A DNA stretch of 64,000 nucleotides. Source: Clostridia bacterium (GTDB lineage Bacteria; Bacillota; Clostridia; Oscillospirales; Acutalibacteraceae). The notes under the pieces are model-generated. The model made no database searches and was not told the origin of the DNA. It saw only the letters and a program-made list of their open reading frames with translations. The position numbers and the translations under genes are program-made. Shown one piece after another: positions 30,741 through 55,300 of the stretch. Position 1 is the stretch's first letter, and each line of letters begins with the position of its first letter. The DNA is taken from contig JAFQKF010000006.1 of the NCBI GenBank assembly GCA_017397105.1, forward strand, positions 28,348 through 92,347. The letters are read 5' to 3'.

Positions 30741-30787
30741 AACGGCACACTGCTGAATTTTCAACAGTGTGCCGTTAATTTTTTATT
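30741..30787. terminator. Two-way terminator between the deacetylase and ligase-fusion genes
   Basis: A perfect 12-bp stem, aacggcacactg / cagtgtgccgtt, is flanked by A-rich sequence on the left and aatttttt on the right, so it can serve both convergent genes. The ligase stop codon lies in the right flank. Confidence 0.85.
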
Positions 30788-33101: not shown

Positions 33102-33155
33102 TGTGCATTCTCCTTTCATAATACTAATTGCACGTTATGCCTCTTGGCGATTAAA

Positions 33156-36126: not shown

Positions 36127-36159
36127 AGTTTTGATAAGTTGAAACCGGGAGGAATAAGA

Positions 36160-36897
36160 ATGTCAAAAGTACTCGATTACCTTGATAACGTTCAGCGTTT
36201 AATCAGCCGTATTGCCGAAGAACAGGCAGGCAATATAGAGAAAGCAGCCCGTCTTGTAGCGGATGCGCTCGAAAATTCTAAAAACGTATACGCTTTCGGC
36301 ACCGGTCATTCCCATATGCTTGCAGAGGAGCTTTTTTACAGAGCCGGCGGTCTTGTCAATATCCGTCCGATTTTTGAAACCTCACTTATGCTTCATGAGT
36401 CTGCATCAAAAAGCACAAAGCTTGAAAGACTCTCAGATTACGGTGAGATTCTTTTTGATGAATACGGAATTTCCGCAGGGGACGTGCTTTTCCTTTTTTC
36501 CAATTCAGGCAGAAACGGTGTAAGCATTGATTTTGCTCTTCTTGCAAAAGAAAGAGGAGTTCATACTGTAGTGATTACCAATATGGAGCACACTCTCAGC
36601 GGCGCATCCCGTCATCCGAGCGGCAAGAAGCTCTATGAGCTTGGTGAAGTTGTTATTGATAACTGCGGCTGCCTTGGTGATGCCTGCATTGAAATCCCCG
36701 CTTTGGGCAGAAAGGTTTCTCCTACGTCCACCGCAGTGGGAGCGGCAATCCTCAATTCCCTTACCGCTCAGGCAGTTGATTATATGATTGCTGACGGGTT
36801 TGAACCCGAGGTGTTTGCAAGCAGTAACGTTGACGGTGGCGATGAAATCAATGACCGTTACCTTGAAAAGTATAAAAAGGAGATAAGAAGCTTATGA
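36160..36897 (+). CDS. SIS-domain sugar-phosphate protein (UPF0309-like)
   Basis: 245 residues from ATG 36160 (GGGAGGA 7 bases upstream). The SIS fold shows AFGTGHSHMLAEELFYRAGG, FSNSGRNG and VVITN. Relatives bind phosphorylated sugars as isomerases, etherases or regulators. The stop overlaps the next start (ATGA), so it is translationally coupled to a GH84 hexosaminidase. That points to GlcNAc-6-phosphate or a similar amino-sugar phosphate as ligand, which is inference. Confidence 0.85.
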   Translation: MSKVLDYLDNVQRLISRIAEEQAGNIEKAARLVADALENSKNVYAFGTGHSHMLAEELFYRAGGLVNIRPIFETSLMLHESASKSTKLERLSDYGEILFDEYGISAGDVLFLFSNSGRNGVSIDFALLAKERGVHTVVITNMEHTLSGASRHPSGKKLYELGEVVIDNCGCLGDACIEIPALGRKVSPTSTAVGAAILNSLTAQAVDYMIADGFEPEVFASSNVDGGDEINDRYLEKYKKEIRSL

Positions 36898-38564
36898 TTT
36901 TTCCTTATCCCCGTCACCTTGAGGTTGTGCAGACTGTTGCTTGCGGTGCGTCTGTTGTGGCAGAATGTGATGAAAAGGCTTTTGTTGAGCAGGTTTTCGG
37001 CGGTTTTGGAATCGCCTGCAATGATAATGCTCAGCTTGTGCTGCGCACCGTTAAAAGAAACAACGCCGCTCTTACGTACATAACTGAGTCCAATACTGTC
37101 ACAAAGGAAAAGTATATCATCAATTCCTGCCGTGAGGGAGATAAAATAATTATTACAATAGAATATGCTTATCTCAACGGTCTTTATTACGCTTTGCTCT
37201 GCCTTTCTCAGCAGATTAAGGCTAAGGAAATAATTCTCGGCGTTATCGAGGATTATCCTCTTTTTGCCTGCAGAGGATTCATTGAGGGCTTTTACGGCAA
37301 GCCGTGGAGTGCCGAAGAGCGGGAGGATATGCTTGTTGCAATGTCGCACAAGCGTATGAATACCTATTATTATGCACCAAAGGATGACCCTTGGCACAGG
37401 GATAAATGGCGCGAGCTTTATCCGAAGGAGCAGTTTGATGCCCTGAGCCGCCTTGTGGGGCTGTGTAAGGAGCTTTTTATTGATTTCCATTATTGCATTG
37501 CCCCCGGACTCAGTATGCGCTACACGAGCGAGGAGGATTATTCTGCGCTGTATGAGAAGCTTATGAGTCTTTATAAGGCCGGTGTAAGGGGATTTGGTCT
37601 GTTGCTTGACGATATCCCCGAAACCCTTTATTACGAGGAGGATAAACAGCGTTTTGATTACGAAACCGTAAACGCCCATATTTACCTTGCAAACAGGCTC
37701 TACAACGATTTGCAGAGTCTTGACTCCTCTGTTACCCTTACCGTTTGTCCTTTGCAGTATCACGGTAAAGGAAACGAATATTTCATTTCAAAGCTTGGCA
37801 GGGAGATTGACCCGAGAATAATGCTTTTCTGGACGGGGTCAAACATCTGCTCGCAGGAGCTTACCGTGCCCGAGGCGTTTACTTTTATTTCGTCTACTAA
37901 TCATAAACCGCTTTACTGGGATAACTTCCCCGTAAACGATGCCGAGATGTATCACGAAATGCATCTGGGATATCTCAGCGGAAGAGAAAGCGGCCTTTAC
38001 CGTTATTCACAGGGCCTTATATCTAACTGCATGGAGTATTGCGAATGCTCAAAAATCCCGCTTATGACTGTTGCCGATTATCTCTGGAATCCCGAAGCTT
38101 ACAACGCAAGGGAATCGTGGGAGAATGCGCTTGCAGAAATGCTTGGTGAAGAGGCGGAGCTGTTTGAATATTTTGCTGACAATCTTCTGTTTTCCTGCCT
38201 TAAGGTGGAGAATTCTCCGCTCTTCAATCAAAAAACAAATCTCGCCATGCAGAAACTCGGAGCAGGGGAAACTCAGCAGGCAATTCAGGTTATCAGTGAA
38301 TATGCGGTGAATCTCGGCGCTTGCTGTGAATTGCTCAAGAAGGGTGAAAGAAAGATTTACCGTGAGCTTTCACGCTGGGCAGACAAGCAGCTTGCGGCAA
38401 GCAGTCTGCTGAGCAATGCTCTGGCGCTTGTTACGGGGACTTCGGAGGTAACTGCGGAACAGGTTGAAAAAGAATTTGCGCAGTACAGACGGACTCCCGA
38501 GGTGCTTTACGATTTCTCATTTGTAGCGCTTATAGAAAGGTTGCTGAATTTTAATGAAAATTGA
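36894..38564 (+). CDS. GH84 beta-N-acetylglucosaminidase
   Basis: 556 residues. An N-terminal GH20b-like domain (~1-120) is followed by the GH84 barrel: FACRGFIEGFYGKPWS (~124-139), PKDDPWHRDKWRELYP, and GFGLLLDDIPE with the catalytic Asp pair at 239-240. The mechanism is substrate-assisted release of terminal beta-GlcNAc. No signal peptide or binding modules, in contrast with secreted clostridial GH84 enzymes, so it should act inside the cell. Coupled to the SIS gene upstream and overlapping the Cys-cluster gene downstream by 11 bases. Confidence 0.93.
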   Translation: MIFPYPRHLEVVQTVACGASVVAECDEKAFVEQVFGGFGIACNDNAQLVLRTVKRNNAALTYITESNTVTKEKYIINSCREGDKIIITIEYAYLNGLYYALLCLSQQIKAKEIILGVIEDYPLFACRGFIEGFYGKPWSAEEREDMLVAMSHKRMNTYYYAPKDDPWHRDKWRELYPKEQFDALSRLVGLCKELFIDFHYCIAPGLSMRYTSEEDYSALYEKLMSLYKAGVRGFGLLLDDIPETLYYEEDKQRFDYETVNAHIYLANRLYNDLQSLDSSVTLTVCPLQYHGKGNEYFISKLGREIDPRIMLFWTGSNICSQELTVPEAFTFISSTNHKPLYWDNFPVNDAEMYHEMHLGYLSGRESGLYRYSQGLISNCMEYCECSKIPLMTVADYLWNPEAYNARESWENALAEMLGEEAELFEYFADNLLFSCLKVENSPLFNQKTNLAMQKLGAGETQQAIQVISEYAVNLGACCELLKKGERKIYRELSRWADKQLAASSLLSNALALVTGTSEVTAEQVEKEFAQYRRTPEVLYDFSFVALIERLLNFNEN

Positions 38565-39084: not shown

Positions 39085-39125
39085 AACGCCCATGTAAAGT
39101 GTTATAACTTTACATGGGCGTTTTC
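39085..39125. terminator. Two-way terminator between the GH84 operon and the radical SAM operon
   Basis: A perfect 16-bp stem, AACGCCCATGTAAAGT / ACTTTACATGGGCGTT, with loop gttata and TTTT on the right; the left side gives GTTGCTGTTTTA on the minus strand. Confidence 0.85.
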
Positions 39126-39160: not shown

Positions 39161-41071
39161 TTATCGGATTTCTTCGTTTTTTCTTATAGTCTTTTTGTTC
39201 CTTCTGCCGTACCAGATTATCTGACGGGCGTATCCTTCCCAATTGTCGGGGACGTTTTCGGCAAAGAATCTGAAGGTTGAAGGCTTTTCAATAAGCTCAG
39301 GCTCCTGATTGGAGAATACACTGTTAAAATATGAGCGCCAGTCATAGCGGAAGCTTAACGAAGAATCGTTGATTCCGGGCACCACAATCATGTTTTTCTG
39401 ATAAAGCAGGAGGTCGTCAAGAATCTGCTGCTCAATAGGATATCCGGCAATGAATTCCACAGCTTCCTTATAGAAGTCATCAAGCTTGTAAATGTAATCA
39501 AGCAGCATCGCTTCTTCGTAAGGCCAGGTGATGTCACCGAATATGGGGTTGATATATGAAACGTCAGCCACGCCCTCCGACGTGGATTCAATGCAACGGC
39601 TTATTCTCTGAAGAGTTGTGCCGATAACACCGTTGCTTTTCGAGAAATGCTCGGTCAGCGATTCGTAAAAATCATAGTAGGAAACTCCGAGGGAATTGTG
39701 AAGGTATATTGCGAAATACTGGAGCAGACCGTGGCAGTGCATACTCTGAATGCAGAAAGAGAATACGCTTGCTTTTACAAGCTCCTCGGCGGTCATTGTG
39801 GATGTTTCAACAATATACTCAAGTCCGCCTGCAAAAACGGCATTTGATATTTTACAGTGGTTGATGTTAAGCTTGTTTATAGCGGTCTTGATTCCGAATT
39901 TTTCCATATAAGCTTTGTCTGAAAGAGTGGAGTTGGGATACACCTCACAACGGAAAACGTTGATGGAATCGTGCTGACCTCTTTCAAGAAGCTCGCATAT
40001 CCCTTTTGAAAAGCTTTCAAGCGTTTCTCCCGGCAGGCCGAGAATAAGCTCCGTATATGTGGGAATATCAGCTTTATGGTACATTTCAAGCTGCTCTGAG
40101 AGCTTATCCTTGTTCATGTTTTTGCGTGAAATGTTTCTGAGCACCTCTTCGGACATACTCTGGAAAGCGAGGGAAACCCCCTTGCTCATTCCCACGTCGT
40201 TAAACAGTTTGTTGATTCTGAAAATTCTGTCAGTTTTATCCTTGGCAAAGCATGCTCCGAATTTATCGGGGAAGCCGTTTTTATTTTTCAGATTGACTGC
40301 AAACTGTGCTATTTCTTCATCGCGTTCAAACAGGCCGAAGTTTGAATCAACGCACATACAGTAGGAGATTTTATGCTCTGAAATCCATTCAAGGTCTTTC
40401 TTTACACGCTCCATGGGGAATTTGCGCATGGGGATATCGTATTCGCACCAATCGCAAAAAGAGCAGTGATAGGGGCATCCTCTGTTGGTTTCAAGCTGGG
40501 CGTTGAACTCAATATTCTCGGGCACAAGGCACAGCTTATCAAAAATTCCCGTAAGGTAAGGGGAGGGGTAATCCTCAACACCCTCGTACTTATCTTCGTT
40601 TTTGATGATGCTGCCGTTTTCGCCCCTGTAAGCGATGTTGCACACCTGCGATAAATCTCCGCCGTTGTTGTAAGCACGCAGAATATTAAGCAGAGGGATT
40701 TCGCCCTCGCCGTATATCAGAAGGTCGATAAAGCTGTATTTCTCAAGGAATTCGGTATTTCTCGCTATCTGATGACCGCCGAAAAGAATAATACACTCAG
40801 GGTAGAGTTTCTTTATGGCTTCGGCGATTTTTAAGTTGTAATTATAATTCCAGAAATAGTTCGAAAATCCTACCAGAAACGGATTGCTGATGCAGCCAAG
40901 CACATCTTCCTCAGGGTCTTCTTTGAAGAAAATGCCTGCAATTTCATGGCTTGCGTCTATATCCTCAAACTGCATTACGTAGGAGGATAATACGCCTACA
41001 GCATAGGGGAAATAAATAGAATTTCCAAGCAGGGTGTTGGGCTGGATAAAATAGATTTTTTTCTTTTCCAA
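39161..41071 (-). CDS. Cobalamin-binding-type radical SAM enzyme, paralogue 1
   Basis: 636 residues from TTG 41071, which has GGTGA 5 bases upstream as its two paralogues do; GTG 41083 and 41080 are alternatives. Residues ~1-170 form a B12-binding-like Rossmann domain (PYAVGVLSSYV, ILFGGHQIARN) lacking the DxHxxG ligand motif. The radical SAM core starts with ETNRGCPYHCSFCDWCEYD, whose three Cys (CxxxCxxC) bind [4Fe-4S], and includes LILGLPGETLESF. A long C-terminal domain ends in WYGRRNKK. Last gene of the operon. The reaction is unknown; B12 radical SAM enzymes often methylate unactivated carbons. Confidence 0.85.
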   Translation of the reverse strand: MEKKKIYFIQPNTLLGNSIYFPYAVGVLSSYVMQFEDIDASHEIAGIFFKEDPEEDVLGCISNPFLVGFSNYFWNYNYNLKIAEAIKKLYPECIILFGGHQIARNTEFLEKYSFIDLLIYGEGEIPLLNILRAYNNGGDLSQVCNIAYRGENGSIIKNEDKYEGVEDYPSPYLTGIFDKLCLVPENIEFNAQLETNRGCPYHCSFCDWCEYDIPMRKFPMERVKKDLEWISEHKISYCMCVDSNFGLFERDEEIAQFAVNLKNKNGFPDKFGACFAKDKTDRIFRINKLFNDVGMSKGVSLAFQSMSEEVLRNISRKNMNKDKLSEQLEMYHKADIPTYTELILGLPGETLESFSKGICELLERGQHDSINVFRCEVYPNSTLSDKAYMEKFGIKTAINKLNINHCKISNAVFAGGLEYIVETSTMTAEELVKASVFSFCIQSMHCHGLLQYFAIYLHNSLGVSYYDFYESLTEHFSKSNGVIGTTLQRISRCIESTSEGVADVSYINPIFGDITWPYEEAMLLDYIYKLDDFYKEAVEFIAGYPIEQQILDDLLLYQKNMIVVPGINDSSLSFRYDWRSYFNSVFSNQEPELIEKPSTFRFFAENVPDNWEGYARQIIWYGRRNKKTIRKNEEIR

Positions 41072-41090
41072 AGGTTTCACCACGAATCTG

Positions 41091-43004
41091 TTAATTGAGA
41101 TAGTTGATTTTTGTAATAATGTTCTGACCGCCTTTTCTGCCAAACCAGATGACCTTTTTTGCATATTCCTCAAGGTCGGTCGGAATATCGGATGAATCAA
41201 TGCGAATCCTGATGTTTTTCCTGTTAAGAGGGGAGTATTTATTGGAATATACCGATTCAAAATAGACGAACCAGTCGTAGCCGAAATCCAGCACTTCAGG
41301 CTTGTGCAAAGGATTTTTAACAACCGCTCTCTGGTATTTCAGCAAATCCGCAAACAGCTCGCTATCGTCAAAAAACGAAGCGATAAACGGCATTATTTCA
41401 TCATAGAAGCTGTTGAACTGCTTTACTGCTCTTAAAAATGCTGCTTCATCAAGTGGCCACGTCAGTGAACCGAAATCGGGCTCAACGCTGGTAAGGGAGC
41501 CTTTGTTGAGCAAAACTTCTTCATACTTGCCTTTAAGCCAATGATAAATTCTGCCACAGACGGTATCGGGATTTGCCTTAGACCACTCGATAAGCGAAGA
41601 GTAAAAATCGGTATAAAGAATTCCTTTTTCGCAGAAGAGATAAATTGCGATTGCCTGAAGCAGACCGAGATTGTGAAAGGCACGCACGAAAACTGAAAGA
41701 ATATTGCATTTTATCCACATATCCTCAGGCATTGCGGACGTGGAAACAACAATTCTGGAAATCTCGGCTATTTCATCGGGCTTGGGTACTATATGATACT
41801 GATGCAGCTCGGTGAGTGCATACTTTATGGAATGCTTTTTGATATACTCCGGGTCGTTCATAATGGAATTTACAAGCAATTCGCAGTTGAAGAAATTGAT
41901 GGACATATGCTGACCCGCCTGCAGCAATTGCTCAATTCCGTCCCTGAAGCTTTCGTAGGTTTCGCCGGGAAGACCTATGATTATTTCGGAATACGCCGAT
42001 ATGCCGTTCTGATTATAAAGCGACATAAGCTTTTTAAAGGAAGATAAGGGCATATTCTTGCGATAAATATTATCAAGCACGTTCTGGTGCATGGATTGGA
42101 ATGAGAGAGTAGCGCCCTTGCTCATGCCTGATTTGTTAAGCTTCCGGGTTATATTAAAAACTGTTTCGGGGTTGTTTTTTGAGTAGGTTGCCTGGAATTT
42201 TTGCGGATATCCCGTTTCGTTATGCTTTTTGATAAGATAATCCACAATTTCGAGGTCTCTTTCAAACAGACCGAAGTTTGAATCGGCACAATAGCAGTAT
42301 TCTATTTTGTTTTTCGCCATCCAGTCGATTTCATCACGCACGGTCTGTATATCGTACATTTTGATTCTTGATTTTATATTACCCCAGTCGCAAAAAGCGC
42401 ATTTGTTGGGACAGCCGCGGTTTGTTTCAAGAATTGCGGAAAATGCGAGATTTTCGTTCTCTACAAGAGAATCAAAGTATCCTGCAACGTATGGCGAAAC
42501 TCTGTCAGCAATCTGTGAATCGGTTACGGGAGTTTTTCTCAATCCGTCAGCGGTGCTGTAAATAAGATTCGGCACATTGTCGATTTCTTCTGCGCCGCAC
42601 AGATGAAGAAGAAGCTTTCTGAAGCTTTCTTCACCCTCACCCGTGAGAATATAATCGGCAAATCCGCTTTCTGATATATCGGAATCTTCAGAAATCTGAT
42701 GGCCGCCGAAAACGGTGATACACTCGGGAAAGGCTTTTTTGACGGCTTTTGCCAGAGCTTTGTTATATTCGTAGTTCCAGATGTAGCAGGAGAACCCTAC
42801 AACAAAAGGTGATTCCATACCTGAAACAACACTTTCCGGGTCTTCTTTTTTATAAATAAAGCCTTTGAAATCGTAGGCGTTTTTTATTCGCTCGTCACTG
42901 AATGAATAAGCAATAAGCGAGCCGGCAGCATAGGGGAAATAGATAGAATTGCCGTATTGCGAGTTGGGCTGTGACATATATATGTTTTTCAGGTTTATCA
43001 CCAC
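41091..43004 (-). CDS. Cobalamin-binding-type radical SAM enzyme, paralogue 2
   Basis: Up to 637 residues. The same plan as its neighbours: PYAAGSLIAYS, VFGGHQISEDS, then ETNRGCPNKCAFCDWGNIK, IIGLPGETYESF, and WFGRKGG near the end. The start is unsure. GTG 43004 and 43001 lack a ribosome binding site, while GGTGA sits 5 bases before a CTG at 42992, the same spacing as in paralogue 1; ATG 42978 is later. Substitutions are spread along the whole length, so these are old paralogues rather than a recent copy. 19 bases separate it from paralogue 1. Confidence 0.85.
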   Translation of the reverse strand: MVINLKNIYMSQPNSQYGNSIYFPYAAGSLIAYSFSDERIKNAYDFKGFIYKKEDPESVVSGMESPFVVGFSCYIWNYEYNKALAKAVKKAFPECITVFGGHQISEDSDISESGFADYILTGEGEESFRKLLLHLCGAEEIDNVPNLIYSTADGLRKTPVTDSQIADRVSPYVAGYFDSLVENENLAFSAILETNRGCPNKCAFCDWGNIKSRIKMYDIQTVRDEIDWMAKNKIEYCYCADSNFGLFERDLEIVDYLIKKHNETGYPQKFQATYSKNNPETVFNITRKLNKSGMSKGATLSFQSMHQNVLDNIYRKNMPLSSFKKLMSLYNQNGISAYSEIIIGLPGETYESFRDGIEQLLQAGQHMSINFFNCELLVNSIMNDPEYIKKHSIKYALTELHQYHIVPKPDEIAEISRIVVSTSAMPEDMWIKCNILSVFVRAFHNLGLLQAIAIYLFCEKGILYTDFYSSLIEWSKANPDTVCGRIYHWLKGKYEEVLLNKGSLTSVEPDFGSLTWPLDEAAFLRAVKQFNSFYDEIMPFIASFFDDSELFADLLKYQRAVVKNPLHKPEVLDFGYDWFVYFESVYSNKYSPLNRKNIRIRIDSSDIPTDLEEYAKKVIWFGRKGGQNIITKINYLN

Positions 43005-43028
43005 ACTTTACTGCAGAGTAATTATAAT

Positions 43029-44948
43029 TCAGATTTTATCGATACGGTTGGGAGCGCTGGAATACATCATTCTGCTGTTTCTTCTGCCGTACCAGATTAT
43101 TTCACGGGCATATTCAACCCAGTCGTTTGTTTCAAAGACAGTTGAAAATCTGTATTTTACACTGCCTTTTTTAAGGGGAGTGCAGGCGTTTCTGAGAATA
43201 GAGCCGAAATATTCAGCGAAGTCATACTCATACTCAGCCTCATAATTGTTAACGCAAGGTCTTAAAACCACCGCTTTCTGGTATGCCATAAGCTGGCTGA
43301 GCATTTTTTTATCCGTAACGTAACGCTTGAGGAAAGCTGTCATTTCCCCGTAGAATTCGTCGGAATGATAAAGGCAGAGCAAAAATACGGCTTCTTCCAA
43401 CGGATAAGTTATTTTGCCGAAGATATCATTCTGGTAAGTGAGCCCGCCTTTTCCGTCAACAAAATTGCGCAAAACGGAAGAAACCCGCCTGAATACGTTT
43501 TTGCAGAAAACGCTTTCGTTTTCAATGAAATCAAAAAGACGGGAATAAAAATCGTAATAGGAAACGCCGTATTCATGGCGCACGTACATTGCTGCGCACT
43601 GCATTATGCCAAAATGGTGCATACTCTGAACGCAGGTGGAGAATTCATTTGCTCTTATCCAGTCTTCCACGCTGAGAGTTTCCGTGCCTACTATGATTGT
43701 TGAGAAGCCTGACAGTACGTCATCCATACTCTCACAGTGGTACTGGTTGAGAGAGGTGGAAACGGTTTTGATTTTGAATTTTTTAATATATTCGGGCGAG
43801 CTTAAAGTTGAATTGGGAAGAAGCTCGCAGTAGTAAGCGCTTACGGAGCTGTGCTGACCGAGCTCAAGTATTTCACAAAGGCCGTGGGTAAAGGTTTCGT
43901 AGGTTTCGCCGGGCAAGCCGAGAATAAGCTCGGTGTAGGTGGAGATACCCGCATCCCTGTAACGGGCAATCTGCTTTGAGTATTCCTCTTTGCTGATGTT
44001 GGCTCTGCCTACGTTTTCAAGGACGGCAGGGGAAAGGCTCTGAAGAGCGAGGGTTGCGCCCTTGCCGATTCCGTGGTCGGCAAGCATTTTGTTTATGCGG
44101 AAAACGCGGTCCTGCTCGCATTTGGCGTAGGAAACCTGAAGCCTGTTCGGATAGCCGTTTGTTTCTTTTAATTCAACAAGCTTCTGAGCGATTATTTCAT
44201 CACGCTCAAACATTCCGAAGTTAGCGTCCACGCAGTAAACGAATTCCATTTTGTGCTCGGACATCCATTCAAGCTCTGCCATAACTTTTTCAAGAGGGAA
44301 AAGCCTTACTTTTGAGTTGAGCTCGCCCCAATCGCAGTAGCAGCAGTTGTAGGGGCAGCCTCTGTTTGTTTCGAGCACGCAGGAGAACCGGTGTTCACTG
44401 TCTTTGATGATATCGTCAAAAACACCCGTAAGATAGGGTGAGGGATAATCGGAAATGGTAATTTTTGTTTCTTCGGTCTGAACAGCCTTTCCGTCGGGCA
44501 GTCTGTATGAAATATTGGGGATTGATGAAAAATCCGAACCGTCAAGAAGCGCCAGCAAAACGTCCCTGAAGGATTCTTCTCCCTTGCGGTGGCTGAGAAG
44601 GTCGATAAAGGGATAATCATCAAGGTAACGTGTTGTGGGCGGAACGTGATGACCGCCGAACTGGATTATGCAGTCAGGATAAGCTTCCTTGAGCTTCCGG
44701 GCGTATACAAGGTTGTAATTGTAATTCCATATTGAGTTTGAAAAACCTACGAATGCGGGATTTTCAAGGCTGCGGATGCTTTCATCAACATCCTCGAGGC
44801 TGTAAATAATCCTTTTGAGTTCATAGGCTTCTTTTATGCGCTCATCGTTAAACGCGAAAGCTGCAAGCATACCGACGGCATACGGCAGATAATACGTGTT
44901 GCCGTACAGGCAGCCTGCCTGAACAAGATAGACGTTCTTTTTATTCAT
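43029..44948 (-). CDS. Cobalamin-binding-type radical SAM enzyme, paralogue 3
   Basis: 639 residues, ATG 44948 with GGTGA upstream. LPYAVGMLAAFAF and IIQFGGHHVPPTT in the B12-like domain, ETNRGCPYNCCYCDWGELN at the cluster, LILGLPGETYETF later, and the shared WYGRRNSR close. The first of the three in transcription order, 20 bases after the Fkp-like gene. The CDWG extension of the cluster motif is shared by paralogues 2 and 3 and is CDWC in paralogue 1, which may mark different roles. Confidence 0.86.
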   Translation of the reverse strand: MNKKNVYLVQAGCLYGNTYYLPYAVGMLAAFAFNDERIKEAYELKRIIYSLEDVDESIRSLENPAFVGFSNSIWNYNYNLVYARKLKEAYPDCIIQFGGHHVPPTTRYLDDYPFIDLLSHRKGEESFRDVLLALLDGSDFSSIPNISYRLPDGKAVQTEETKITISDYPSPYLTGVFDDIIKDSEHRFSCVLETNRGCPYNCCYCDWGELNSKVRLFPLEKVMAELEWMSEHKMEFVYCVDANFGMFERDEIIAQKLVELKETNGYPNRLQVSYAKCEQDRVFRINKMLADHGIGKGATLALQSLSPAVLENVGRANISKEEYSKQIARYRDAGISTYTELILGLPGETYETFTHGLCEILELGQHSSVSAYYCELLPNSTLSSPEYIKKFKIKTVSTSLNQYHCESMDDVLSGFSTIIVGTETLSVEDWIRANEFSTCVQSMHHFGIMQCAAMYVRHEYGVSYYDFYSRLFDFIENESVFCKNVFRRVSSVLRNFVDGKGGLTYQNDIFGKITYPLEEAVFLLCLYHSDEFYGEMTAFLKRYVTDKKMLSQLMAYQKAVVLRPCVNNYEAEYEYDFAEYFGSILRNACTPLKKGSVKYRFSTVFETNDWVEYAREIIWYGRRNSRMMYSSAPNRIDKI

Positions 44949-44968
44949 AGTAAATCACCGTAATCAGT

Positions 44969-47419
44969 TCATTTATAAATATCAAGCTTAAGAATCTTGC
45001 TGTTAAGTTCAGGGAATTTTTTTGCGGTAAACTCCAGAAAATCCGAAAACGAAATCTCGGACTTCAGGAAAACAAGAAGGTATCCGCCGGCACCTGCGCC
45101 GCATATGGACACCGCCTTAGCAACCTTGCTGCAATCGCTTATCATTGAGTTGATTCTTTCGTTTGTAACAGAGGGGGAAATTTTTTTCAACAGCTGCATA
45201 TGGCGGTTTATGCAACGGAAGAATTCAACTGTGTCATCATTTTCAAGCGAGCAAACAAGCGAGCGGTTGAGCGACTTCATTTCCTCGTAAGCACAAAGTG
45301 CGTCGGGATCCCTGCTGAGGTAACGGTTTACAACGTCGTTAACGACAAATCGGCCGAAATGGCGCTGACCCGTTGGAAGAAGAACTGCTTTTTCTGAGAA
45401 AATATACTGCATATTATCGCGCAGTTCAATATTGCGAACACTTAATTCCTGATGCAAACCCGAATCCGAAGCAACAAGCTTCAATCCGGGATAAAGCCCG
45501 CCTGCCTGGTCCTGCCAGCCGCCACCCGTTTTCATAAGCTGTTCTGCAATAAAAACCATCTGAGCAATGCGGCCGTATGAGTAGCCGAGGCGGAACATAT
45601 CCGAAAAAGCTTTGAAGCAAGCGGCAAGCAGAATGCTGCTTGTTCCGAGCCCCGAGCCTTTGTCGATTATTGAAACCTGCGTGCTCAGACGCAGTCCGAA
45701 GGGAAGCTGGCTTGAATCTGTAATGCCGATGGTTTCAAGCACCGCTTTGTGGAGATTGAAGTCGGAAAAATCGTCGTATATATTCTGACGCTCAAAGTCA
45801 AAAACCGTTTCGTGAGAGTCACTGATAAAGGTTACGGTTTTATCGTTTGTGCGTTCGAGGGTCACTTTTATCGGCAAAGCGTTATCAACGGTTACTGCCG
45901 CATTAATAACCTCGCCTCCGTTGTCGGTGCAATATGGCATGGCATCCGTCCACGTGCCGCAGAGATTTATGCGAACGGGCATTGAAATCTCAACACGGTC
46001 AGTAACTGCATTTAACTGAGTAAGGGGGGAGCGGCGGGCAAGAAAATCGGAGATGAGAGCCTTGCGTATTCTTAGATATTCAAAGTGCGGCTTATTCCTG
46101 ATGAAATCCGCAACGTACTGCCTGTGATTGTAGAAAAAATCAAAATCCGCATTTTCCGTGCAGTAGCTCAGGCTGTATTTTTCTTCATCTGCATCTGCGA
46201 GAAATTTTTCGAACGAGTCATAAAAGCTTTTGCCTTTATAAAATCTCGGAACGTCCCACAGCTGAGCTTCACCGACTTTGGTTTTGGGGTTTTCGTCAAT
46301 GTCGGTGATTACCGTAACAAAGCTTCCGTCATTGATTTTTATACCGCTTACGGCTTTAGAATCAGGAACGGATATGGCACGGTTGAACGTTATATCGCTT
46401 ATCAGGCAGTTAGAGCCGATTTCGGAATTATCGTGAATCAGCGCTGAGTCAAGCAGAGTTTTGTCCCCTATCGATACGCTGTCGCCTGCATAGCTGTTGA
46501 TCAAAAGGCTGGGCAGCTTATCTGAAAGGGAAAATACGTTATCAAGCAATTGCCTGCTTGTGCCGAAATGCATAAAGCTCTGACTTTCGGGTACGCAGAC
46601 TTTAAGGGTAAAACCTCTGAGAGCGCCGTAAAGCATTTCTTTTAACTTCAGATGCTCGGCGCTTGCGGTTTCGTGCTCAAAATATTCCTCAGCGTTGAGC
46701 TTTTTGCTCAGTAAAGGCAGAATATCCGAATAGAAGTTGAGCTCGGTTCCGCTTTTTTTGATAAAGCCAAGGATATCCGACTTCTCTGAAAGAGAGAGAA
46801 GAGCGTTGACAAAAGCATCGCATAAAAAAACCATGCCCGTATCAACCGTGAAATCATTACTGCCGCAAGAGTATTTCCGAAGAGTTTCGGCATCGTATTT
46901 ATGCAGAAAACGGAGCATATCTGCGTTGCTGTCGGCAAACATTACTCCGTGATTTACGGCGGTAGAGATATCGGCTTTCATTCCGAAGCCGACGTTAGAA
47001 TCAAAGTCCGCCTTTATTTCCGACGTGTTTACAAGAATGTCACTGCAACAAAGAAGCACACCGCTGTTGAACGATTCGGCAAGACGCACTGTGTTTGAAA
47101 CTATATGCTCCAGAAGGGTTACGGGTCTTCCTTCGCATAATGTGTGGGCAAAAGCTTTGCCTTTCACGGCGCAGCAAAAGGTTCTTTTTGAAAATCCGCC
47201 GGAATTTATTACTATAAGCTTTCCAGAGTTTTTATAATATCGGCTGATTGCGTTGATAGCTGCACCTCCGGAGCCTATTCTGCCGCCTGCGTCATCGTCG
47301 GAAATTACGTGAATTTTCTTGCAGGGCAGAGCCAACTCGGCAACAAGCTTTAAGCACAGCTTCTTCTGAGCAGCTGTGCCTACGGTAAGAACTATTGTTG
47401 CGTCATTGGGTACGTTCAT
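44969..47419 (-). CDS. Fkp-like bifunctional sugar-1-phosphate guanylyltransferase / GHMP kinase
   Basis: 816 residues from ATG 47419 (GGAGC overlaps the previous stop). The N-terminal half has the L-fucokinase/guanylyltransferase pattern GGRIGSGGAAINAI and INSGGFSKR. The middle has left-handed-helix-like repeats. The C-terminal ~330 residues are a GHMP kinase with RINLCGTWTDAMPY and the ATP loop GSGLGTSSILLAA, and a closing GAGAGGYLLVF. Bacteroides Fkp turns L-fucose into GDP-fucose by kinase then GTP transfer. Here the sugar could be fucose, a heptose or another hexose. It likely supplies the nucleotide sugar for this operon. Confidence 0.85.
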   Translation of the reverse strand: MNVPNDATIVLTVGTAAQKKLCLKLVAELALPCKKIHVISDDDAGGRIGSGGAAINAISRYYKNSGKLIVINSGGFSKRTFCCAVKGKAFAHTLCEGRPVTLLEHIVSNTVRLAESFNSGVLLCCSDILVNTSEIKADFDSNVGFGMKADISTAVNHGVMFADSNADMLRFLHKYDAETLRKYSCGSNDFTVDTGMVFLCDAFVNALLSLSEKSDILGFIKKSGTELNFYSDILPLLSKKLNAEEYFEHETASAEHLKLKEMLYGALRGFTLKVCVPESQSFMHFGTSRQLLDNVFSLSDKLPSLLINSYAGDSVSIGDKTLLDSALIHDNSEIGSNCLISDITFNRAISVPDSKAVSGIKINDGSFVTVITDIDENPKTKVGEAQLWDVPRFYKGKSFYDSFEKFLADADEEKYSLSYCTENADFDFFYNHRQYVADFIRNKPHFEYLRIRKALISDFLARRSPLTQLNAVTDRVEISMPVRINLCGTWTDAMPYCTDNGGEVINAAVTVDNALPIKVTLERTNDKTVTFISDSHETVFDFERQNIYDDFSDFNLHKAVLETIGITDSSQLPFGLRLSTQVSIIDKGSGLGTSSILLAACFKAFSDMFRLGYSYGRIAQMVFIAEQLMKTGGGWQDQAGGLYPGLKLVASDSGLHQELSVRNIELRDNMQYIFSEKAVLLPTGQRHFGRFVVNDVVNRYLSRDPDALCAYEEMKSLNRSLVCSLENDDTVEFFRCINRHMQLLKKISPSVTNERINSMISDCSKVAKAVSICGAGAGGYLLVFLKSEISFSDFLEFTAKKFPELNSKILKLDIYK

Positions 47420-47427
47420 TTTTGCTC

Positions 47428-48138
47428 CTATAAGTGAAACCTTATTTTGATGCCGGTAAGAATAAACCTGATAGCCACCGAGCAAAGGATGTGGAAATTG
47501 AAATTGGTTTTGCCGTTTTGGCGGCTTTCGTATACTGTGGGGATTTCCTCATATTCCTCACCTGCGTGCAGGGGCTTGAGGGTGTATTCATACAGAACGG
47601 TTTCGGGATTATCGAAGTTTAGCCTTCTGTACATCTCGATGGGATAAATCTGGTAAATGGAAAACGGGTCACAAACCTTCTTGTTAAAAAGGAGAGTGAT
47701 TATTCTGTTCATTGTTTTGCTGCAGAAAGCGTGAAATGCTCCGTATCCGATAACGGTGGATTCGGGCAGCCATTTAGCGGCGCAGATGATGCGCTGGGGA
47801 TGCTGCTTTGCCTTCTCGATGAAAGTTGAGAGATCGCGTGCATCCATTTCATTGTCTGCCACCATAATTACGAAATGCGAAGATTCAACTAACGGAGGCA
47901 GCTCAGAAACGCAAATCTGAGGATTCGGAGCCTGCTGTATATGAATATCAACCTTACTGTCAGCATTTTTCAGCTCCTGAGCTACTGCGTAACTTGCGCA
48001 GTGTTCATCCTTGGGAACAATAGTGATTTTTGCAAGATCCTCATCGTTGCAGTTGCTTCTTATGCTTGAAACCGTTTGCCTGAGTAAATCGGTTTCATTT
48101 TTTGCCATAACGAAAACGGTTAACGCTGTGAAGTTCAT
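47428..48138 (-). CDS. GT2-like glycosyltransferase
   Basis: 236 residues from ATG 48138, which follows directly on the upstream stop (TAATATG). It begins with a typical GT-A strand (LTVFVMAKNETDLLRQTVSSI), has VIMVADNEMDARDL as probable metal-binding DxD region near ~95, and ends with a hydrophobic, basic helix that may touch the membrane. It probably moves a sugar from a nucleotide or lipid donor to a carrier. The family match is moderate because the later acceptor motifs are not clear. Confidence 0.7.
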   Translation of the reverse strand: MNFTALTVFVMAKNETDLLRQTVSSIRSNCNDEDLAKITIVPKDEHCASYAVAQELKNADSKVDIHIQQAPNPQICVSELPPLVESSHFVIMVADNEMDARDLSTFIEKAKQHPQRIICAAKWLPESTVIGYGAFHAFCSKTMNRIITLLFNKKVCDPFSIYQIYPIEMYRRLNFDNPETVLYEYTLKPLHAGEEYEEIPTVYESRQNGKTNFNFHILCSVAIRFILTGIKIRFHL

Positions 48139-48139
48139 A

Positions 48140-49180
48140 TTATACCAATTCACCTGTTGTAGTTATTATTTTGCTCCATATGGTCTGCTGCATTTCCTGG
48201 AATAATGACTGAGTAATCAGTATCCATGCGGCAATAACGGCGATTGTCAGATAGGGATGATCCTTGAACCAATCCGTAATCCTGCTGAGTGCTTGCGTTG
48301 CATTATCTTTGTCAAGGCAGTATACGGCGGCAAGGGTTACAACGATAAGCTGATTTGTTAAAGTGAAGCTTTCTGCGTAGTTGAAGACGAAAGCGCCTGT
48401 AACCGTTGCGGCGTAAACGGCAACAAAGCAGATAATCAATCCGAAATGCTTACCTGAAGTTTTAACACGCAGATAGTTCCTGAAGAAAACAGCGAGAATT
48501 ATAATGAAGGGGATGTTTGCAACAAGGAATCTGGGGAGATGATACTGAAGGGAGATTGACAGCGATGTAAAATTAAAGGAGTATACGAAGTTTACAACGG
48601 AGTGAAGATTCTTGTTGAGCATCCATGCAACAATGCAAACCGCAACAAGAGCGGCAAAGAATACTACGGAGAGTAAAGCTTTTTTGGAGTTTTTCTTGTC
48701 AGCTGCGGGTTTGTTGAAGTCAGAGAGAGTGCATACAAACGCAACAAGAGGAGCATAGCTCAGAACGGCTTCGGGGCATACGAAAACAGAAACACCCGAG
48801 AAAACGATTGCAAGCAGCCATTTCATCACAGCGGATTTACCTCTGAGGGCATAAAGAATTACAAGTGCCATAGCAGAGAGAATCACTGCGTGCGAAATGC
48901 TGAATAAAGAATGCTTGAAAATCGGGTCAAGTAAAAACAGCAAAGCAATGAAAATTGCGGCGCCGCTGTCAGACGTGAGCTTTGAAATTACAAAAGCGCA
49001 CACCGCAGAGAATAAAACAAGCGAAACGAGGTTGAGAAGGTTCACAGGTTCAAAGCTTATGCTCAAATTTTCAATGTTAACCCCGAGAACGGGTTCGGGA
49101 ACGTAAGCTATGCACCTGAGAAGGACTATTATAAAATACATGAGGGAGTTTGATTTGGTTTTGGTTAAAGTCTTTTTCAT
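48140..49180 (-). CDS. Polytopic membrane protein of the radical SAM operon
   Basis: 346 residues with about nine hydrophobic segments and a basic N-terminus. No motif I recognise; the outline (long outer loop after the first segment, EPVLGVNIENLS) is compatible with a GT-C-like transferase or a polymer-handling protein. GAGGAGC precedes ATG. It lies 17 bases after the larger membrane gene. Confidence 0.65.
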   Translation of the reverse strand: MKKTLTKTKSNSLMYFIIVLLRCIAYVPEPVLGVNIENLSISFEPVNLLNLVSLVLFSAVCAFVISKLTSDSGAAIFIALLFLLDPIFKHSLFSISHAVILSAMALVILYALRGKSAVMKWLLAIVFSGVSVFVCPEAVLSYAPLVAFVCTLSDFNKPAADKKNSKKALLSVVFFAALVAVCIVAWMLNKNLHSVVNFVYSFNFTSLSISLQYHLPRFLVANIPFIIILAVFFRNYLRVKTSGKHFGLIICFVAVYAATVTGAFVFNYAESFTLTNQLIVVTLAAVYCLDKDNATQALSRITDWFKDHPYLTIAVIAAWILITQSLFQEMQQTIWSKIITTTGELV

Positions 49181-49197
49181 ATTTCAGCTCCTCTACA

Positions 49198-50412
49198 TCA
49201 AAGGATAACGACGGATAAAAAGTAAATTGCGGCACATACCGAAATTATCAAGTGGTTTTTAATCCATTCAAAAGCTTTTTTGAACGTATCGGTAACAGCA
49301 CAGTCGTTTTGAGAAACAAAGAAAATCATCAACGCCATCTGAACAAAGAGGTTGTTGTAGAAATATTTACTGGATTGTAAAATAAGAAAAACAATCGGAA
49401 AATAAACAATAGGTGATATCGCACAAAGGAAAAAGATAAATCTGTGGAATTTGTTGTCTGAAACCTTTATACAGCTTTTCCAAAAAAGTGACGTCAGAGT
49501 ATAGGTGGGAATCATCAAAAAGATTAAATCAATGACAAAAGCGGAGCCGTTGTCGCTAAAATACAACTGGTGACAAAATTCAATAATTCCTGCTGCATCT
49601 TCAAAATAGTCGACAAGCCAGCCGTTTACGAAAGTGTTATACAGAGTTTCGGAAATGGTTCCGTCATATCTTGAAAAGTAAAAATCAACCATTTCATTGG
49701 GGGACTCAAAACCAAGCTTTTTCTCAGAAATTAACGAGTACAGACCCAAAGCAATCATTGAGATATATGATACAGCGCAAACTATTCCGTTTTTCAAGGA
49801 AAAATTGCTTGTGTAAAAATTGTAAAGAAGAATAATTGAAGTAAGAATCATGCTTGTGAAAAGGAAAACCGGATTAACAAGTGTTGCAAGCACGCAAAGG
49901 GCGGGGACGAGCCATATTGCATATTTTTTGCCGGCAAGGAAAACCCCGAAAAGTGCAAGAGCCCAGGTGAGCTTATCCATTCTGTCGTCAATGCAGTAGT
50001 GAGGAAAGCCGACGGGGCATATGCAAATCAGGATTGACAGAACAGCGACTATAAAAAAGTGCTCGGGCTTGTCCTTGGTTTTGGAAAGCGCTTTGCCTAT
50101 GCAAAGTGAAAGGGAAACCGTAAGAAGAACAGCAAATAACGTTGAAACCTGTTCAGTAAGTTTATCGGAAACGGTATCAAAAAACCAACTGATTGCTTCT
50201 CCTACGAAACCGCGTGCAACAAAGCCGTGGTCATATGTGTAGAGATATTGGATGAGATAATAACCGGTAGCCGGTATTGTTAATCCTCTGAGTATGATTG
50301 ATACCAGATATCCGCCCAGTACGGCAAACGGAACGAGATAGCACAGGAAAGTGACAAGCTTTCTGTGCTTTTCGGTGAAAAATGCAAATTTGTTCGTGCT
50401 CTGTAAATTCAT
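49198..50412 (-). CDS. Polytopic membrane protein, first gene of the radical SAM operon
   Basis: 404 residues from ATG 50412 (AAGGT 7 bases upstream). About ten membrane segments. The early outer loop has TYDHGFVARGFVGE with charged residues, as GT-C enzymes have in their first loop, and a second large loop lies at ~215-275. It may transfer a lipid-linked sugar outside the membrane or move the glycan. It shares general character, not clear sequence, with the next gene. Confidence 0.65.
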   Translation of the reverse strand: MNLQSTNKFAFFTEKHRKLVTFLCYLVPFAVLGGYLVSIILRGLTIPATGYYLIQYLYTYDHGFVARGFVGEAISWFFDTVSDKLTEQVSTLFAVLLTVSLSLCIGKALSKTKDKPEHFFIVAVLSILICICPVGFPHYCIDDRMDKLTWALALFGVFLAGKKYAIWLVPALCVLATLVNPVFLFTSMILTSIILLYNFYTSNFSLKNGIVCAVSYISMIALGLYSLISEKKLGFESPNEMVDFYFSRYDGTISETLYNTFVNGWLVDYFEDAAGIIEFCHQLYFSDNGSAFVIDLIFLMIPTYTLTSLFWKSCIKVSDNKFHRFIFFLCAISPIVYFPIVFLILQSSKYFYNNLFVQMALMIFFVSQNDCAVTDTFKKAFEWIKNHLIISVCAAIYFLSVVIL

Positions 50413-52228: not shown

Positions 52229-52301
52229 CGCAAAGTGTTTGTGGTGTAAACAGTTTGCGTGCTCCACCCGGCCGAGAGGCCGCGTAAATCTAATGGAGGT
52301 G
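52229..52301 (+). promoter_or_regulatory. Structured 5' leader of the dockerin-protein gene
   Basis: Hairpin CGCAAA-TGTTT / AAACA-TTTGCG (52229-52259), then CGGCC-gaga-GGCCG (52269-52282), nested in CTCCA (52262-52266) paired with TGGAG (52294-52298) of the ribosome binding site. It may dampen translation or stabilise the mRNA. The rest of 52107-52228 is AT-rich; I see no sure promoter. Confidence 0.45.
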
Positions 52302-52307
52302 TCTTTT

Positions 52308-55300
52308 ATGAAAAAAGCAAAACGCATTCTTGCTCTGCTTCTTGCAGTAGTACTGATTGCAACGGGTTCATCCGTAACCACCTTCGCTTTGAAGTATGAC
52401 TACAAAACTCCGAAGGCTGTTGTTAAAAACGGTCATACAACGGATATGTACTACTTCTCAGCAGAGCAGGGCGGTACTTACGTTATGGACCTTATCGATG
52501 ATCTCCTGCCCACTCTTAATGATGGTATGGATATGAGAATCAACTACTCGATTCTTATTGATAAGACCATCGCTTTCGGTCAGGGTTATGACGGCTTCCT
52601 TGCATCAGTTTATGATCTTTGGGGCGCTGGCATCATCAGTGTCGCTAAGACTCTTAACCTTGCAGGTGACCTTGAAAGACTTGTGATTAATGAATCTACT
52701 TGTAATAGCTATACAAGAAGAGGTCACGCCACAATTCCTGACATCAACTGCATCTACAACCTTCTCCTCTTCCTTAAGGAGAATGACATTGTTCTTGCAA
52801 ACCTTGTAAATGACTCATTTGACTTCGGTCTTCTCGGCTCCAGCGGTACAATCGCTCTTAAAGTTATCCCCACTGAGCTTGAAAACATCGGCCCCTTCCT
52901 TACTCAGACTGTATGGGAACTCCTTGCAGGCTTGGCCGGTAAGACTGATGAAGAAATTGCAGCAGCAGCTCAAGCACAGTCCTGGGATATAGATGCTCTT
53001 CTTCAGGATATGATCAACTTCCTTATCGGTGATCTTCTTCCCGGCGTTGCAATTTCAATCGATCTTAAGACCTCAAGCCTTTATGACGTAGTTAACAGCC
53101 TTATTGATGCTCTTCTCGGCGATATGCTCGCTCCCATGCTTACCGAAGTTATTGCTGATGCTTGCGATATCGAAGCTACTGAAGATTACCCCATGGGTCA
53201 CCCCGATGATATCAACAACGAAACACTCGTTATGATCTGCGGTATCGTTGAAGACCTTGTTGGTGAATACGTTGAGCCTCCCGTATATGAAGGCGACGCA
53301 GCAACATACCCCATTGCAAAGATCAACAAGCTTCTCACTTGGTTCCTTGCAGAAGGCGGTATGAGCGCATTCATCGTTATTGATGATAACGGTATCGCTA
53401 TCACCGATAACTTTATGTCACTTCTTACCGACGTTTCCAGACTTGCTATCCCCCTTGTTTATAACCTTGGTATGGATGACCTTCCTCAGAGTGAAATCTA
53501 CACTCAGGAGCAGCTCAACATCCCCGAAGGTCAGCCCGGCTACATCAGCCAGGATGCAGTTTGGGGTCAGCTTATCAAGATTGTTCTTTCCTCAATTACT
53601 GACGGTTACTATTGCCCCCCTGAGGCTGATACCATTGTTGAAGTAGGTTCCTACGCTCTTGCTTCACTTTGCGCAAGAATTCTTCCCGAAAGAAACTTCT
53701 TCGATCAGCTTGATGCAAACTATGCAGAAGGCACTTATTATGATTACAACGGCGAAGTTGTTGAGCCTCTTGCATTTGAAACTCAGTACTCCACCAAGTG
53801 TAAGGTAGACGGCGCACAGGTTACAAGAACCTACACCGTTCCCCTTGCAGCAATCCAGATGGGTTATGAAATCGGTATCTTCTTCCTTGACGGTATGATT
53901 GACTGTGACTTCACTTCAGTTACAGGCACCGGAATGCAGGGCTTCGAGCAGTTCCTCAAGGCTCTTGTTGACTGGGTTCTTACAAGATACGCTCCCATCA
54001 TCGGTGACTCCTTCAAGATCACCACCAACTATCCCAACGCTTCCGATGTATGGCTTATGCTTGACGAAGTTCTCTTCTCACTCATTCCCACATCATGGCT
54101 TCCCGAAACTGTAGAATCCACCTTCGGCGGTGCTGTTTCACAGCCTGTTAAGTGCGCACTTGACCTTATCTGCAACTGGCTTCTTGATTCAGTTCTTAAC
54201 CTTAACCTTCAGAAGCTTCTCAGCCTTCTCAGAGTTAACCCCACCGGCGAACTTAACGATCCCTTCCTTCAGGTTCTCCTCAGAATCATTGACCGTGTAT
54301 TCTACATCGTATTCGGTAACAAGGGTTGTCTTCTCCCCTCAGATCAGGCCACAAGAAACCCCTTCAACACCAACACTACAGTTACCTCTATCGGCGGTCT
54401 TCTCTCCTTCGGCAGCGGCAGCTACAAAGGCAACGTCACAGAACTTGCAACTCTTGGCCAGGTAGTTTACTACCTCCTCAATAACCTTTTCAACAACAAG
54501 GAATCCATTTGTGAAACTCTCTTCCCGCTTCTTCTTAGTACAAATTATGTTCCCAAGTACCGTGATACAGTTTCCAACCCCGATTCCGGTATTCTTGCTC
54601 CCGGTCAGATTTCTGTTGCAATGCTTCAGAAGTACATTAACGGCGCAGGCGGCAAGAACACAGTTGAAGCTCCTTATATCGTAGCTGAAAACGTAAACGC
54701 TCTTACTGAGGGCACTTACTACACCATCGAAGTTACTATGACCGGCATCCAGCCCACAGCTACAGCTACTCAGGTAACTCTTCCCGATGATTTCGTTCAG
54801 GGCACAACCTATTACACCACAGGTTGGGAAGTTGATGATACCGCTGATGCTTTTGCTCAGGGTACCTACTACCTCAGAACTGATACCTATGAATCAGTTA
54901 CTCTCGACGGTACAAACTTCGACGGTAATCAGACTTATTTCTCAGCTGACTATGCAGAGGCAGTTGTAGATGAAACCACCAACGGCACTTACTACACAGC
55001 TCAGAACGAGTCTTCAGCAGTTACCCTTCCCGAAGGCTACGTTGAAGGCACTGTTTACTACTATCACCCCGTAGTATCCCTCGGTGCTACATCAACCGGT
55101 ACCTATTATATCCGTAACAGCACCTATACTCCTCAGACCTTCATCGGTACAGCAGGTAACAACTATATTAAGAATAAGACTTACTACAAGGTTGCTACAA
55201 CAAAACTTGAGTATGACTATCTTAACTCCTACAACCCCGAAACCGGCAAGCTTGCAATGAACGTTTACTCTGCAGGTACTGCTGCTACCAGAGGCATTGG

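Follow-up and report, generated by a model that had tools for sequence, protein, structure and literature searches.

The characterised TokK-like cobalamin-dependent radical S-adenosylmethionine (SAM) enzymes belong to antibiotic pathways, and the methylcobalamin-dependent C-methylase KedN5 is likewise an enzyme of a natural-product pathway. Three-component transmembrane glycosylation combines a polyprenyl-phosphate glycosyltransferase, a flippase and a GT-C glycosyltransferase. TokK acts on a carbapenam and CysS on a methoxy-aminobenzoate-type compound, and in the structures of these enzymes a tryptophan (W76 in TokK and W75 in CysS) lies under the cobalt, on the lower face of the cobalamin (available part of PMC12846815). 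Radical SAM C-methylation by GenK takes place at C-6' in gentamicin (PMC4039129, as far as its accessible portion describes). We have analysed a seven-gene operon in a 64,000-nucleotide stretch of contig JAFQKF010000006.1 from a Clostridia bacterium (hereafter, the window), in which three genes for TokK-like radical SAM proteins (rSAM A, B and C) lie beside genes for a sugar-activating protein (Fkp-like), a glycosyltransferase (GT2) and two membrane proteins (TM1 and TM2). Protein families, active-site residues, co-occurrence and gene order were established by computation. With a probability of roughly 0.57, the operon directs the synthesis and export of a C-methylated sugar, in which case a guanosine diphosphate (GDP)-activated sugar would be methylated stepwise at carbon and passed on via polyprenyl phosphate.

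A first-pass annotation of the window had described seven genes on the minus strand with gaps of 1 to 24 bases, including an Fkp-like gene, a GT2-like gene, two membrane-protein genes and a radical SAM trio sharing an ETNRGCP motif. The open reading frames (ORFs), their starts and the gap counts agreed with this layout. All seven ORFs were confirmed between positions 39161 and 50412, and with the most plausible starts the gaps were 17 bases (TM1-TM2), 1 (TM2-GT2), 8 (GT2-Fkp), 20 (Fkp-C), 24 (C-B) and 7 (B-A). The ORF listed as 39161-41323 opens too early, and the probable start of rSAM A is the GTG at 41083 or 41080.

The motif ETNRGCP...CDW was present in all three radical SAM proteins, reading CDWC in A and CDWG in B and C. 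Pfam supported a radical SAM domain in each of them, and the B12-binding model scored above its gathering threshold in B only. The best NCBIfam model was KedN5 for A (E 2.4e-72), B (1.8e-68) and C (1.4e-74). A profile built from 30 relatives matched TokK (7kdx) with an E value of 1.3e-149 and CysS (9n1b) with 1.3e-85, the TokK match spanning profile positions 7-583 and chain residues 13-609 of 681. In an alignment of 211 methylases, 10 of them forming the outgroup, W74 was kept in every sequence and aligned by HMMER with TokK W76 and CysS W75; the CxxxCxxC cluster cysteines 198, 202 and 205 were also kept in 211 of 211, window A, B and C included. Since the cobalt-side tryptophan and the three cluster cysteines are invariant, A, B and C look like working TokK-like methylases, as judged from sequence. 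Identity to rSAM C was 38% for B and 43% for A, indicating that the paralogues are old.

Residue C374 of rSAM C is a cysteine in 198 of the 211 methylases, and TokK and CysS carry leucine there.

B12 radical SAM methylases also occur in pathways for ribosomally synthesised and post-translationally modified peptides (RiPPs), and the rSAM_ocin_1 and ApyD models did score, weakly, with these proteins. Maturation of a peptide by this cluster is nevertheless very improbable. The RiPP models reached E 4e-17 or weaker against about 1e-70 for KedN5, and a precursor gene does not fit inside the operon because the gaps are 1-24 bases long; no search for small ORFs was made in the flanks. A match of the trio to a peptide-modifying family had been put forward as evidence against a glycan role, and the best NCBIfam match of none of the three is peptide-modifying.

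The distribution of the gene set was determined in 99 relatives (source genome included), comprising 45 genomes of the same genus, 16 from other genera of the family and 38 other genomes of the order. It was also determined in a family-wide draw of 300 genomes from 135 genera, for which GT2 and TM1 were sought with profiles derived from methylase-neighbouring genes and at most four candidates were scored per genome, copy numbers thus being lower bounds. Among the 99 relatives, methylases were found in 27 of the 45 own-genus genomes, in one of the 16 from other genera and in none of the 38. GT2 occurred in exactly those 27 own-genus genomes, and TM1 in the same 27 and in G057, which itself bears methylases. 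In the mapped stretches, all 28 strong GT2 copies lay no more than 3 kb from a methylase. Confinement of the methylases to one genus was rejected on the basis of the family draw, in which 33 of the 300 genomes, from 17 of the 135 genera, carried them. GT2 was present in 30 of these 300 genomes (29 of the 33 with methylases versus 1 of the 267 others) and TM1 in 29 (28 of 33 versus 1 of 267); methylases, GT2 and TM1 were found together in 26 of the 33. The exceptions lacking methylases were G212, with a weak GT2 match (1.1e-17), and G192, with TM1. Methylase-bearing genomes in which GT2 was missing were G057, G247, G340 and G366, and those in which TM1 was missing were G129, G209, G247, G340 and G364. 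An order-wide draw gave 2 positives among 345 genomes at E 1e-100, namely the source genome and G179 of the same family. The first-pass annotation had called for a co-occurrence check, and had held that a trio found mostly without Fkp and glycosyltransferase partners would speak against it. The glycosyltransferase part of that comparison came out in its favour, as the counts above indicate. The Fkp part did so only partly, a window-type Fkp over its length being present in 9 of the 33 methylase-bearing family genomes.

This distribution bears on whether the product of the cluster is instead a small molecule that is glycosylated and secreted, and whose non-sugar part is the target of the methylases, as in the carbapenem and cystobactamid pathways. 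The characterised close relatives TokK and CysS are natural-product pathway enzymes (PMC12846815, in the part available), and a Streptomyces contig with a distant homologue (L075) yielded no gene of the HddA or HddC heptose-activation types. We consider such a product distinctly improbable, because the methylases accompany GT2 and TM1 across the family, and Pfam and NCBIfam revealed no recognisable scaffold-making gene among the seven, two of which (TM1 and TM2) match no known family.

The Fkp-like protein matched the fucose pyrophosphorylase family of Pfam (PF07959, E 4.9e-46) and GHMP_kinases_N (E 3.2e-08), in keeping with its earlier assignment. We aligned it with Bacteroides FKP, for which residue roles were taken from the available part of PMC11982464. 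The kinase residues R592, W599, D601, E751, Q761 and D762 were all identical. In the pyrophosphorylase half, D136, H168 and K187 were identical and Q186 was replaced by histidine, in a stretch that aligns weakly (6.6 bits); R80 and K89 appeared to be kept when compared by eye via a longer relative in L036, and H272 was not assigned a position. As most FKP active-site residues are retained, the substrate of the Fkp-like protein is likely to be an L-fucose-like sugar.

By itself, the window GT2 did not reach the cut-offs of Pfam (E 0.011 and 0.031), found no match among solved structures in a single-sequence search, and revealed no hydrophobic segment by hydropathy. A 12-sequence GT2 profile, on the other hand, matched dolichol-phosphate-mannose synthase (5mlz) with an E value of 5e-18 over profile positions 5-231 of 243, corresponding to the catalytic domain. 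TM1 and TM2 have about nine hydrophobic segments each and proved to be distant homologues of one another in a profile-profile comparison (hhalign probability 97.5, E 7.6e-12), and TM2 adjoins TM1 at the same position in related operons. Assignment of either protein to a known family was rejected: no Pfam family was supported for TM1 (one of 29 members matches TgpA_N at 0.00095), Pfam matches were found in none of 10 TM2 members, and the TM1 profile matched no solved structure in the PDB by sequence. TM1 is a candidate extracytoplasmic sugar transferase or carrier-handling protein.

Many clusters of the genus contain, instead of Fkp, an HddA-type kinase together with a cupin and a fusion of HddC and GmhB. 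The best NCBIfam hits of the kinase and the fusion were heptose types, with the HddA and HddC cut-offs not reached. Of the 28 genomes with mapped stretches (27 own-genus genomes and G057), HddA was found in 18 and Fkp in 5, with no genome carrying both and 5 carrying neither (p 0.0026; the Fisher values assume independent genomes, and these genomes are related). The count of 'neither' depends on the stretch mapped, since G057 carries HddA on another contig, and the Fkp of G042, one of the five genomes of that type, is a longer form. In the family draw, HddA was present in 17 of the 33 methylase-bearing genomes versus 4 of the 267 others. Strict exclusivity of the two modules was rejected, 2 of the 33 genomes carrying both (p 0.057). 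G332, G183 and G274 contain an additional longer or shorter Fkp relative of lower score, and HddA was not found in the source genome at E 1e-30.

The methylases themselves divide along the same line. In a tree of the 211 sequences, from which methylases shorter than about 580 amino acids were excluded, the Fkp or HddA type of the genome changed 3 times, compared with 41.3 changes on average, and never fewer than 25, in 500 shuffles of the genome labels. For 157 of 164 labelled methylases, the closest relative in a different genus shared the type (the public contig L055, whose genus is not known, was treated as a separate genus). Genus g112 contains both the Fkp-type G270 and the HddA-type G342, and their methylases cluster by type.

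A further B12 radical SAM family of about 492 amino acids, BchE/HpnJ-like and here called rSAM492, occurs in several clusters of the genus (L038 9780-11258 and relatives).

Non-methyl chemistry is known among cobalamin radical SAM enzymes (PMC13331322, in its available part), and the trio might dehydrate, epimerise or rearrange the same sugar rather than simply methylate it. Some heptose-type clusters hold rSAM492, whose best scores are with BchE and HpnJ and which also scores with the AprD4 diol-dehydratase model. We regard this as unlikely, given that rSAM492 is a different family that is missing from the window operon, and that the proteins nearest to the trio are TokK and CysS, both iterative methylases, together with the KedN5 methylase model.

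A block consisting of TM1, TM2, (GT2), Fkp and four methylases recurs in G270, G214, G366 and G302, from two other genera. GT2 lies inside the block in G270 and G302 and outside it in G214, and the profile search of the family draw did not find it in G366; G267 shows a partial rearrangement of the block. From first to last, the four methylases group most closely with C, B, A and an additional type, D, with clade supports of 0.58, 0.69, 1.0 and 0.94, so that the C and B assignments are less well supported than those of A and D. The window operon ends after C, B and A and contains no D-type gene. The source genome has a second trio on contig C34 (L035 7170-13399), which comprises three D-type copies.

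Six tandem TokK-like genes, one of them interrupted by a stop, lie between TM1-type and GT2-type genes in L188 (G352:C60:1-13752).

We also looked outside the family. Of 79 public loci, 58 are more distant, and flanks of up to 10 kb were inspected. These 58 were divided into 11 close long relatives and 47 others by a line at a profile E value of about 1e-140 that was set after the scores were known; the 47 include loci from Clostridia as well as short contigs. An HddA-type kinase was found in the flanks of 4 of the 11 close loci and 0 of the 47 distant ones (p 0.0008), and an HddC/GmhB-type protein in 7 of 11 and 3 of 47 (p 0.0001). Neighbours in Desulfocucumis palustris included a SIS-domain protein, a nucleotidyltransferase, a HAD hydrolase, a GDP-mannose 4,6-dehydratase-like protein, a dTDP-sugar epimerase, a GT10 and a GT2. 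Loci from Planctomycetota and Acidobacteria had in common a kinase, a nucleotidyltransferase and an epimerase of these types, and in Acidobacteria a bacterial sugar transferase was present as well. That the methyl acceptor of the radical SAM enzymes is a sugar would fit both their protein family and their genetic linkage.

The acceptor could alternatively be a lipid, whether the polyprenyl carrier or a different one. The involvement of a lipid carrier in the pathway is suggested by GT2 and the two membrane proteins, and in a few relatives a CrtI/carotenoid-isomerase-like flavin adenine dinucleotide (FAD) enzyme and an Fe-S reductase adjoin the radical SAM genes. We judge lipid methylation to be distinctly unlikely: the FAD enzyme was present in 3 of the 28 methylase-bearing genomes with mapped stretches, and some distant methylase homologues adjoin GDP-heptose-type genes. 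Methylase type also tracks the type of sugar activation, but GT2 and TM1 do so too.

Two side observations concern these relatives. The FAD enzyme and the reductase, of the [2Fe-2S] type, occur in L040 (5905-8477), L042, L144 and L183, and in L040, L042 and L183 they lie close to a radical SAM protein of a different B12 type, about 610 amino acids long. Genes of the rSAM492 type are also found near distant TokK-like genes in L074, L077 and L078.

For the C-methylated sugar, a pathway can be proposed as follows. The Fkp-like protein, judging from its conserved active sites, would phosphorylate a free L-fucose-like sugar and convert it to the GDP-sugar. A, B, C and the D type would each methylate that sugar at unactivated carbons, either ahead of its activation or following it. 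The DPM1-like GT2 would, by homology, move the sugar from GDP to polyprenyl phosphate, and TM1 and TM2 may flip it or transfer it outside onto a glycan or other acceptor, which is the least secure part of the scheme. The same machinery would be fed by the heptose kinase/guanylyltransferase module, instead of Fkp, in roughly half of the relatives. L-fucose as the starting sugar, the order of methylation and activation, the roles of TM1 and TM2 and a location at the cell surface are all presumptive here. The first-pass annotation had envisaged either a sugar altered by C-methylation, deoxygenation or rearrangement, or modification of the lipid carrier. Its general proposal is supported, and C-methylation is favoured among these options, TokK and CysS being closest; the activation and transfer steps that it had suggested are favoured by the 5mlz match of GT2 and by the FKP residues.

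Several observations weigh against this pathway. The Fkp-like protein scored 243.9 bits with NCBIfam PRK13412, whose cut-off is 721 bits, and has alanine at T602, a further fucose contact, and asparagine at H73 (by eye, via the longer relative in L036). The KedN5 model (NF033712) gave 244.1 bits for A, 231.3 for B and 251.5 for C, with a cut-off of 700 bits. In 5 of 28 genomes the TM1 match was weaker and away from the methylases, neither activation module was present at the cut-offs used in 9 of the 33 methylase-bearing family genomes, and 7 of the 11 close outside loci, the Streptomyces locus L075 for example, had no HddA. Neither Fkp nor GT2 occurs in the 20 kb around the second trio of the source genome, which would be explained if that trio is a displaced D type. 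Lastly, the GT2 and TM1 trees split between Fkp and HddA in the same way, with 2 changes each. Co-inheritance of a cassette therefore explains the split as well as enzyme specificity does, and co-segregation is weakened as a proof of substrate specificity.

Coordinates of the operon genes and hairpin sites in the window
Feature	Position	Strand	Description
TM1	49198..50412	-	404 aa, ~9 hydrophobic segments; polytopic membrane protein; first gene transcribed
TM2	48140..49180	-	346 aa, ~9 hydrophobic segments; polytopic membrane protein; distant TM1 homologue
GT2	47428..48138	-	polyprenyl-phosphate sugar synthase-like glycosyltransferase; DPM1-like catalytic domain
Fkp-like	44969..47419	-	816 aa; bifunctional sugar-1-kinase / GDP-sugar pyrophosphorylase by Pfam and FKP residues
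rSAM C	43029..44948	-	TokK-like cobalamin radical SAM C-methylase; 7kdx E 2.7e-93 with single sequence; Trp74, Cys198/202/205
rSAM B	41091..43004	-	TokK-like cobalamin radical SAM C-methylase; NCBIfam KedN5 E 1.8e-68
rSAM A	39161..41083	-	TokK-like cobalamin radical SAM C-methylase; NCBIfam KedN5 E 2.4e-72; last gene
Terminator-like hairpin	39085..39122	-	16-pair stem and T-rich tail, 3' of rSAM A
Second hairpin-plus-T site	50938-50903	-	upstream of TM1

The scan for hairpin-plus-T sites gave 21 sites, only modestly above shuffled sequences (mean 14.5, sd 4.3), and promoter-like sites did not exceed the shuffled background (25 versus a mean of 22.3). A riboswitch was rejected, as the Rfam matches in the window and four related loci were tRNAs only. 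The draft assembly of the source genome comprises 49 contigs (1.85 Mb) and is 76% complete. Elsewhere in the window, a gene for a SIS-domain protein is followed directly by one for a NAGidase-family beta-N-acetylglucosaminidase (36139-38564), a probable secreted protein of 1564 amino acids has a C-terminal end resembling a dockerin repeat by eye (52239-56933), and positions 30783-33119 encode a fusion of helix-turn-helix, cupin and AMP-binding enzyme domains.

Among the matches listed from the open PMC set, no title or start of an abstract tied TokK-like enzymes to glycans, which is weak evidence of novelty. A word search of a 2025 review on cobalamin-binding domains gave 0 occurrences of sugar, polysaccharide, glycan and GenK. 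This combination of known enzyme types is real, conserved and, within the literature searched, undescribed. More tentatively, and at somewhat under even odds, it may build a previously unseen class of surface carbohydrate, made of sugars of the fucose or heptose type that carry several C-methyl groups, each added by a dedicated TokK-like enzyme, and that are handled by a new pair of membrane proteins. If the pathway proposed here is correct, a large TokK-like radiation linked with GDP-sugar activation and polyprenyl transfer would bring this chemistry to glycans, and branched, greasy surface sugars would be predicted in little-studied gut bacteria. The idea is directly testable, since the candidate substrates (L-fucose, fucose-1-phosphate and GDP-fucose) are clear.

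Several described systems are close to the operon or to parts of it. The Fkp-like protein has the same two domains as Bacteroides fragilis FKP, an L-fucokinase/GDP-fucose pyrophosphorylase, and keeps most of its active-site residues, whereas it is shorter (816 amino acids, against 949-969 in the FKP entries of the PDB) and differs at H73, Q186 and T602. The GDP-D-glycero-D-manno-heptose pathway (HddA, HddC and GmhB) corresponds to the alternative activation module of many relatives. GT2 resembles dolichol-phosphate-mannose synthase and the ArnC-type polyprenyl-phosphate glycosyltransferases, its profile matching the catalytic domain of 5mlz, and differs in the hydrophobic segment, none being detected in the window protein. 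A glycosyltransferase of the polyprenyl-phosphate type adjoining multi-pass membrane proteins is reminiscent of three-component glycosylation, from which the operon departs in that its membrane proteins match no Pfam family and radical SAM methylases are added. GenK provides the precedent of a sugar that is C-methylated by a radical SAM enzyme, with the difference that, in the part of the source available, the product is an aminoglycoside antibiotic. The long profile match, the cluster cysteines and the tryptophan under the cobalt relate A, B and C to TokK, CysS and KedN5. Here, unlike TokK and CysS with their carbapenam and methoxy-aminobenzoate-type substrates (as given in the available part of PMC12846815), several paralogues stand beside genes for sugar activation and polyprenyl transfer.

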